Positions 54,102 to 56,158 of a stretch of 64,000 nucleotides of DNA are shown here, one piece after another. The notes under the pieces are model-generated. The model was not told the origin of the DNA. It worked only from the letters and a program-made list of their open reading frames with translations, and searched no databases. The position numbers were made by a program, and so were the translations under genes. Source of the stretch: Nakamurella aerolata (GTDB lineage Bacteria; Actinomycetota; Actinomycetes; Mycobacteriales; Nakamurellaceae); the NCBI RefSeq assembly GCF_013002705.1, contig NZ_JABEND010000001.1, forward strand, positions 682,001-746,000, given 5' to 3'. Each line of letters begins with the position of its first letter. The stretch's first letter is position 1.

Positions 54102-55553
54102 TCAGTCGCCGAACAGGCCGGGATCGGCGCCCGGCGCGGCCGGACCGGCCAACCCCAGATGCTGCCAGGCGGCCGGTGTCGCCACCCGGCCGCTGGCGGT
54201 GCGGGCCAGCATGCCGATCCGCACCAGGTACGGCTCACATACCTCTTCGACGGTGGCCGGCTCCTCGCCGACAGCCACCGCCAGCGTCTTCAGCCCGACC
54301 GGTCCCCCGCCGAAGCTGCGGCACAGCGCGGTGAGCACCGCCCGGTCCAGCCGGTCGAGCCCGAGTTCGTCGACGTCGTAGACGGTGAGCGCCTGCCGCG
54401 CCACCGCCCGGTCCACCGCCGCCGCCGCATCACCGGCCTGCACCTGGGCGAAGTCACGGACCCGGCGCAGCAGCCGGTTGGCGATCCGCGGGGTGCCCCG
54501 GGAGCGCCCGGCGATCTCGGCCGCGCCGTCGGCCCGCAGCTCGACGTTCAGGATGCCGGCGGCGCGGCGCAGCACGGTGGCCAGCTCGTCCGGCGCATAG
54601 AACTCGAGGTGCCCGGTGAAGCCGAACCGGTCGCGCAGCGGCGAGGTGAGCTGGCCGGCCCTCGTGGTGGCACCGACCAGGGTGAACGGTGCCAGCTCCA
54701 GCGGAATGCTGGTGGCGCCGGGCCCCTTGCCGACCACCACGTCGACCCTGAAGTCCTCCATCGCCAGGTACAGCAGTTCTTCCGCCGGACGGGCGATCCG
54801 GTGGATCTCGTCGATGAACAGCACGTCACCGTCCGAGAGGTTGGACAACATCGCCGCGAGGTCGCCGGCCCGTTCCAGCGCCGGGCCGGACGTGACCCGC
54901 AGGGTCGACCCCAGCTCGGCGGCGATGATCATCGCCAGCGACGTCTTGCCCAACCCTGGCGGGCCGGACAGCAGCACGTGGTCCGGCACCGTTCCGCGCA
55001 GCTTGGCCCCGGCGAGCACCAGCTCCAACTGCTGCCGAACCCGTTGCTGCCCAACAAATTCGGTGAGGTCCTTGGGCCGCAGCGAGGCCTCGATGTCGGT
55101 GTCGGTCGCGGTCAGTCCCGGGTCGCTGACCGACAGCGGTTCCGGCTCCGTCACCGCGACCACCTTGTCCTTCAGCTCGAGCACCAACCGTTCAGCGCCC
55201 TTCTTGCCGATCCCGGGGGCGCGGGTGAGCATCGCGGTGTCGCCCGCGGCCAGCGCGGCGCTGAGCTCGTCCGGATCGAACACCGCCAGCAGGGCCAGCG
55301 CGATCTTCGGCCCGACCCCCGATACCGACTGCACCAGCTCGAACAGTTCCTTGGCCGGGCGGTCGGCGAAGCCGTACAGCGTCATCGAATCCTCACGCAC
55401 CACCAGCGTGGTGGCGAGCGTGACCGTCTCACCGGCGGTCAACGCACCCAGCGTCGCCGGCGTTGCCCGCACCGCGTAGCCGACGCCGCCGACGTCCAGC
55501 ACCAGATGGTCGAGCGCGATCGTCTGCACGCTGCCCCGCAATGCCGCGATCAT
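54102..55553 (-). CDS. RuvA-RuvB fusion protein (RuvA domain III missing)
   Basis: One uninterrupted 483-codon frame. Residues 1-~133 are RuvA domains I and II: OB fold MIAALRGSV, acidic-pin Glu54-Asp55 in [12 protein letters not shown], and helix-hairpin-helix motifs [15 protein letters not shown] and [20 protein letters not shown]. RuvB follows directly from about residue 134: Walker [11 protein letters not shown] (196-205), Walker B FIDEIHR (246-252), Arg finger region PLRDRFGF, and sensor 2 [17 protein letters not shown]. RuvA domain III, which in known systems docks on RuvB, is absent along with the ruvA stop. A GTG at 55154 matches the usual RuvB N-terminus and may also start free RuvB. 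The start overlaps the ruvC stop (ATGA). RuvAB drives Holliday-junction branch migration. Confidence 0.9.
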
Positions 55554-56158
55554 CCGCGCGCTCCGGCGCCGAACCCGGTGACGGTCAGCCCGGCCACCCG
55601 TCGTGGCCGGCCGGTCGCCGCCGGGTAGTGCTGCTGCCCGGCGCTGCGGCCGGCACCCTTGGCAGCGAGCCGGGCGGCCAGCGGGCCGCGCCACAGCTGA
55701 CAGATGGCCAGCGCCAACGCATCCGCAGCGTCCGCCGGGCGGGGCTGGGCGTCCAGCTTGAGCAGTTTGGTGACCATGGTGGCGACCTGCTGTTTGTCGG
55801 CAGCGCCGTTGCCGGACACCGCCGCCTTGACCTCGGTGGGGGTGTGCCAGGCCACCGGGATGCCCCTCCGGGCCGCGGCCACCGCGACAACGCCCGCCGC
55901 CTGCGCCGTTCCCATGATGGTGGAAACGTTGTGCCGGTTGAACATTCGCTCCAACGCCAGCTGATCCGGGCGGTGCTCGTCGAGCAGCGCCTCGACGTGT
56001 TCGGCAACCGCCAACAGCCGGGTGGCGACATCGTCGTTCGCCGGGGTGCGCACCACCCCGACGTGCACCAGCCGCAGCTGCCGACCGCCGCGCCCGGTGG
56101 TCTCGACGATGCCGGCGCCACAGCGGGTCAGCCCTGGGTCGATGCCGAGCACCCGCAC
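55550..56158 (-). CDS. ruvC: Holliday junction resolvase RuvC
   Basis: A 202-residue RNase H-fold endonuclease that cuts Holliday junctions. Asp7 ([11 protein letters not shown]), a Glu in [11 protein letters not shown], and the C-terminal [13 protein letters not shown] supply the catalytic acidic residues. The C-terminal ~40 residues are an Ala/Arg/Gly-rich extension. GTG 56158 is supported by GGGAG six to seven bases upstream and the family N-terminus (RVLGIDPG). It heads the ruvC-ruvA/ruvB operon with a four-base overlap. Confidence 0.96.

Follow-up and report, generated by a model that had tools for sequence, protein, structure and literature searches.

Gene Organization and Domain Content

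The window analyzed here is the whole 64,000-nt stretch of the Nakamurella aerolata assembly, and its minus strand carries, directly downstream of ruvC, one open reading frame that encodes RuvA domains I and II followed by a complete RuvB (Table 1). The frame runs from an ATG at 55553 to a stop at 54104–54102 and comprises 483 codons without an internal stop; the plus-strand translation of 54102–55553 is an unrelated frame. The ruvC stop overlaps the ruvA start, and the gene order ruvC-ruvA-ruvB is kept in the window as it is in three compared relatives. From the sequences of the neighboring genes, we take the surroundings to be ruvC and then yebC upstream, and yajC, secD, and secF downstream.

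Table 1. Coordinates of the fused ruvA-ruvB gene, its parts, and adjoining features in the window.
Feature	Position	Strand	Description
ruvC	55550–56158	minus	Start taken at the GTG of VRVLGIDPG; adjoins the fusion upstream
ruvA::ruvB fusion gene	54102–55553	minus	One frame, 483 aa, 50.4 kDa predicted
RuvA domain I (RuvA_N, residues 1–61)	55371–55553	minus	Pfam; includes REDSM (53–57)
RuvA domain II (HHH_5, residues 71–129)	55167–55343	minus	Pfam
LELKDKV, residues 125–131	55161–55181	minus	Final conserved RuvA residues; deletion joint next, at ~55161
AAGGTGGTC, Shine-Dalgarno-like	55158–55166	minus	3 nt 5' of the internal GTG
Spacer, residues 132–157	55083–55160	minus	From residue 134 onward, native N-terminal extension of RuvB
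GTGA	55151–55154	minus	Ancestral ruvB GTG (codon 134) overlapping the ancestral ruvA TGA (55153–55151), out of frame
RuvB core: RuvB_N 158–316, lid 319–395, winged helix RuvB_C 396–466	54156–55082	minus	Pfam
Putative second product, free RuvB	54102–55154	minus	Candidate translation from the internal GTG, 350 aa, 36.8 kDa

The preliminary description of the locus had proposed a single frame joining RuvA domains I and II to a complete RuvB, with RuvA domain III lost, and both parts of this reading are borne out on the minus strand by Pfam and NCBIfam models. By Pfam, RuvA_C (domain III, PF07499) is absent from the 483-aa product, and at the locus the RuvA linker is missing together with domain III. 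The ruvA model TIGR00084 scores 159.3 bits on the fusion (cut-off, 85) and aligns only over profile positions 1–144 of 202, and the ruvB model NF000868 scores 483.6 bits (cut-off, 282) over positions 11–326 of 330; a second ruvB model, TIGR00635, is covered from 2 to 304 of its 305 positions. Because both halves score far over the curated cut-offs, a chance match is excluded. The product is accordingly a RuvB by its near full length, its score, and the presence of all three Pfam domains (RuvB_N, AAA_lid_4, and RuvB_C), and it has the score and domains I and II (RuvA_N and HHH_5) of a RuvA without domain III (RuvA_C), encoded in a single frame instead of the separate ruvA and ruvB genes of a two-protein RuvAB system. 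Solved RuvB and RuvA chains match the fusion as two separate groups (best 60 of 88 sequences). The fusion is a real feature of the sequence, taken from the assembly of one genome.

The core motif strings are all present, as had been described. Those of the RuvB half are GPPGLGKT (197–204), DEIH (248–251), PLRDRFG (305–311), and a 12-residue stretch at 353–364, which we take to be Walker A, Walker B, the Arg finger region, and sensor 2, respectively. The RuvA half retains SGVGPKIA (78–85) and APGIGKKGA (112–120), presumably the helix-hairpin-helix motifs, and REDSM is taken as the acidic pin. Elsewhere in the RuvB half, residues 375–377 (DAA; window 54423–54431) occupy alignment columns that are gaps in all 16 genus relatives. 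The joint is less abrupt than the “almost no linker” originally reported, as residues 132–157 form a spacer that is mostly RuvB’s own N-terminal extension. In the predicted structure, pLDDT per block of ten residues is 86–97 over RuvA residues 1–130 and falls below 50 over residues 138–161, in the spacer region. The RuvB half is modeled poorly (mean pLDDT, 63.9) because just four RuvB rows could be correctly aligned, the alignment behind the model consisting of 20 RuvA and 4 RuvB rows.

Comparison With Nakamurella Relatives

The comparison set consisted of 16 other Nakamurella genomes; two further loci, L038 and L039, were not counted because they come from genomes already represented by L012 and L004. 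All 16 have separate ruvA and ruvB genes with domain III, the ruvA stop being TGA and the RuvA product 201–215 aa long. This stop is overlapped, in 15 of them, by an ATG or GTG that is in frame with ruvB (RTGA) and is a candidate ruvB start; some relatives have another start downstream. The sole genus relative without such an overlapping start is G015 (L018), where in-frame starts lie 21–30 nt downstream.

From the conserved LEL(K/R)D(K/R)V to the ruvA stop, the relatives have 210–252 nt, whereas the window has 7 nt (GTCGCGG) followed by TGA; therefore, ~200–250 nt are missing, from directly past residue 131 to the final ruvA codons. As the window keeps GTGA where the relatives have RTGA, a deletion appears to have joined RuvA to the bases directly 5' of the ruvB start. 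The sequence TCGCGGTGA at the joint resembles the usual end of ruvA, that is, one residue, Arg, and stop. The ruvA stop, earlier thought to be gone, thus survives out of frame within GTGA. The argument that a single small indel cannot explain the fusion is supported, the whole linker and domain III segment being absent. The window and its relatives are alike in RuvA domains I and II, in the RuvB core, and in the overlapping RTGA ruvB start, but RuvA of the relatives has domain III and its own stop, whereas in the window the two frames are joined and the linker and domain III are absent.

RuvA domains I and II (residues 1–134) are 70–75% identical between the window and its relatives, and the RuvB core is 77–83% identical. 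Separate genes in close relatives had been named as evidence that would speak against the joint. Such genes are found in 16 of 16 relatives, but at ~70–75% identity in RuvA domains I and II these genomes are too distant to settle whether the joint is real. A repeat-driven deletion was also considered and rejected: exact inverted or direct repeats linking the edges of the segment were not above control in 15 of 17 loci, the exceptions being L018 (inverted, 0.03) and L009 (direct, 0.05).

Internal GTG and Possible Free RuvB

For the codon 134 GTG, the pairing of the 17 nt at positions –20 to –4 with the 16S tail has an energy of –15.1 kcal/mol, the strongest Shine-Dalgarno pairing among the 36 in-frame ATG, GTG, and TTG codons from codon 8 onward, and just 0.22% of the 3639 ATG and GTG triplets in the window equal or beat this value. 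For comparison, the corresponding range is –2.7 to –12.5 kcal/mol at four sites in the window presumed to be gene starts and –2.0 to –10.7 kcal/mol at the RTGA starts of 15 relatives. The equivalent RuvA site in the 16 relatives, where there is no ruvB start, pairs at –5.8 to –11.0 kcal/mol, and among 5000 synonymous recodings of ELKDKVVA, 14.9% pair at least as strongly as the window’s own sequence (–15.1 kcal/mol). The strength of the pairing is thus partly due to the encoded amino acids, and the synonymous control rules it out as proof of selection. Since the strongest in-frame pairing falls at codon 134, translation may also begin there and yield free RuvB in addition to the fusion, which is plausible from the nucleotide sequence. 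The fusion need not impose the 1:1 RuvA:RuvB stoichiometry that had been expected of it, because RuvB retains its own start codon with strong Shine-Dalgarno pairing.

Search for Other Copies and Other Fusions

The ruvA search of the window’s genome matched the fusion locus only, and no RuvA_C over the cut-off was found anywhere in this 95.3%-complete assembly, which holds one RuvA and one RuvB; the check for a second full-length ruvA, suggested at the outset, therefore returned none over the cut-off. The identical RuvA_C search gave matches over the cut-off in all 16 relatives, so that a stray copy of domain III would probably have been seen. Four RuvA_C matches in the window’s genome were sub-threshold (best E, 0.011). 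A weak, sub-threshold RuvA_C-like stretch occurs at G000:C18:36435–36518 within a 1133-aa frame, and similar weak matches occur in frames of ~980–1210 aa in several relatives; these perhaps represent one shared large protein that is not RuvA.

The full-length fusion was used as a query against four overlapping draws of 61 relatives, 17 genus, 397 order, and 396 phylum genomes, each including the window’s own genome. Matches of any kind were found in 60, 17, 395, and 391 genomes, respectively, and among the matches listed, the window’s genome alone gave a match over residues 1–483 in the four draws. A second query across the joint (residues 90–215) was run against 397 order genomes, 394 class genomes, and 3 genomes of the family of G046. 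Stop-free matches over most of this query, among those listed, came from the window’s genome and from contig C59 of G046. Ten other stop-free matches starting at query residues 18–36 (L122–L124 and L151–L157) proved to be separate genes with a RuvA of 195–211 aa, and L125 and L126 likewise look like separate ruvA and ruvB genes; this reading left out matches with an in-frame stop inside, as well as the remaining ones starting at query residues 33–42 (e.g., G309, G261, and G272).

In the plasmid collection (best 60 of 70 records), matches reaching back to residues 1–53 were in two or three pieces. One-piece matches starting within RuvA were H46 and H47 (from residue 111), H48 (from 77), and H62 (from 63). 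H48 carries no annotation, and H62 was rejected as a fusion, having an annotated separate ruvB and a match that runs on into the neighboring peptidase gene. In the phage collection, the best 20 of 38 matches were all in two pieces. No clean second RuvA-RuvB fusion was found among the matches listed. The preliminary description had also raised the prospect of a RuvA of ~133 aa fused to RuvB in relatives; there is none in the 16 genus relatives and one partial case, G046, outside the genus. The RuvB of two Micromonospora genomes (L098 from 3668 and L112 from 3434) has a large in-frame insertion in Walker A (GPPGLGK/PVSV...VVHN/TTLAN), which looks like an intein.

No description of a RuvA-RuvB fusion was found in the open-access papers searched, in agreement with the earlier statement that none was known. 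PMC8583203 was rejected as a candidate report, the fusion in its available text being a two-hybrid tag.

Sequence Constraint and Age

The 483 codons of the fusion contain neither a stop nor a frameshift, and the branches leading to the window carry 0.26 (RuvA) and 0.21 (RuvB) substitutions per site, values that bear on constraint of the genes and not on the age of the fusion. These branches account for 11.0% of the RuvA tree and 11.2% of the RuvB tree, compared with 3.1–8.1% in the controls RuvC, YebC, SecF, and SecD (control tree of 16 taxa, with G012 left out). The combined RuvA and RuvB share is 1.68 times the control share (bootstrap range 1.23–2.35, with 0 of 100 replicates at or under 1). 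Relatives with ordinary genes have branch ratios of 2.14 (G002) and 1.56 (G009), and the acceleration, raised but unexceptional, was rejected as proof of an old fusion. Private changes in the window number 12 in RuvA (others 1–9) and 22 in RuvB (others 2–14); at otherwise invariant columns, there are 3 in RuvA (others 0–4) and 10 in RuvB, four of them at an indel (others 0–5).

The stretch VDVVVGKG, which we take to be the RuvB hairpin bound by domain III, is identical in 3 of the 16 relatives. As this sequence is ordinary, a relaxed docking hairpin was rejected as a sign of old loss. Slightly beyond the hairpin, the window alone has Leu (SIPLEL), the relatives having Ile or Val. The hairpin sequence tells neither loss nor retention of docking, and the constraint data do not date the fusion. 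The resemblance of the joint to a bare ancestral ruvA end suggests a young event.

Origin and Possible Function of the Fusion

The fusion may have arisen from a chromosomal deletion of ~200–250 nt that cost ruvA its domain III and flexible linker and brought the two reading frames into register, such that the ruvA stop fell out of frame and the ruvB start became codon 134. The RuvA core might still tetramerize on a Holliday junction, and the four attached RuvB subunits could seed two rings through the covalent link instead of docking, while the rest of the ring subunits would be supplied as free RuvB by translation starting at the internal GTG behind AAGGTGGTC. As a covalent tether cannot release, such an assembly could work only with enough slack in the spacer of 26 residues, in short runs, or if its rings undergo no net rotation relative to RuvA. 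A real and possibly functional tethered RuvA(I-II)-RuvB plus free RuvB is our best reading of the locus, and we hold it tentatively, at somewhat less than even confidence. That the fusion is a natural working branch migrase, tethered and supplied with free RuvB and migrating junctions without domain III, is a possibility that we regard as doubtful. According to the available part of PMC9477746, domain III recruits, anchors, and stimulates RuvB, so its loss may abolish function.

The locus may instead be a real but young inactivating deletion, i.e., a natural or laboratory domain III mutant of ruvA in which RecG handles junctions and the frames were joined by chance, as about one-third of deletions keep the frame. 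The unaltered ancestral GTGA at the joint, the lack of a fusion in all 16 relatives, and a docking hairpin stretch that is not visibly relaxed, as expected for a recent loss, would all fit such an origin. A recG match lies at G000:C2:141344–143434 (671 bits, including neighbors in the frame). However, the recG model matches all 17 genus genomes, although over the cut-off only in that of the window; its presence is therefore not a compensation peculiar to this genome. The fusion frame and its core motifs are intact, the ruvC frame is open, and the sequence bears no sign of inactivation, and we consider an inactivated locus unlikely. An assembly or sequencing artifact, in which the organism has normal ruvA and ruvB genes but the assembly omits the domain III segment, draws its main support from G046, a 74%-complete genome of the same order with two contig-end copies of the ruvA-ruvB region that are 98% identical. 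These copies, L141 (1–2000, contig C59) and L142 (1733–3763, contig C32), differ by 5 mismatches and 11 gap openings over 1836 aligned positions. L142 has domain III. In L141, a segment of 202 nt is absent that begins directly past ELRDRI and stops 10 nt short of the ruvB ATG; slightly downstream of this gap, another 15 nt are missing. The loss of nearly the same segment twice in 397 order genomes is the strongest evidence for an artifact or for a segment that is easily lost in culture or sequencing.

The window’s genome is itself a draft of 22 contigs with a completeness of 95.31%, and of the 16 other genomes in the genus, 15 are more complete. The G046 pair, however, may be assembly noise or a mixed culture: it is indel-rich, aligns in two blocks, and has its odd copy at a contig end. 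The window’s own joint, by contrast, is in frame and clean and lies on contig C1, with 8.8 kb between it and the nearer end of the window; the neighboring conserved frames are unbroken compared with three relatives, and no copy of domain III over the cut-off is found elsewhere in the assembly. An artifact seems to us about as unlikely as an inactivated locus.

Comparison With Known RuvAB Systems

Nearly all bacteria have RuvAB, and in the structures and papers compared, RuvA and RuvB occur as two distinct chains. The fusion is a departure from this two-chain system, with a predicted covalent RuvA(I-II)-RuvB known here from the sequence of one genome. Functional work on a RuvA core without domain III is said to have been done by Nishino et al. 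The RuvA chains of PDB entries 7x5a (137 residues) and 8gh8 (140 residues) end after domain II, like the RuvA part of the fusion, but are unfused to RuvB and probably represent constructs. Wolbachia is also a lineage with altered constraint on RuvA, in which, according to the available text of PMC4224334, ruvA was neutralized; unlike in the window, the changes described there are substitutions in separate genes, with no fusion.

A further comparison is with the cryo-EM complex of RuvAB on a Holliday junction. In the accessible portion of PMC9477746, the complex consists of 8 RuvA and 12 RuvB subunits, with two copies of domain III per ring on adjacent RuvB subunits, and a 2022 model is set out in which domain III has to release after every step and then bind anew, its tether being limiting. 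The available text of PMC10272136 likens this release and rebinding to a carbon brush and describes domain III as binding the RuvB hairpin through hydrophobic contact. A fusion without domain III cannot dissociate, and its activity or inactivity would therefore directly test the release step of the model, as well as how far the RuvB rings must turn against RuvA. If the fusion were a working tethered migrase, the release-and-rebind step of domain III in the rotary model would not be obligatory. As far as the parts available of PMC9477746 and PMC10272136 allow comparison, the junction-binding and motor domains and the docking hairpin are common to the cryo-EM complex and the fusion, whereas separate chains joined by domain III in the former are replaced in the latter by a predicted covalent joint without domain III.
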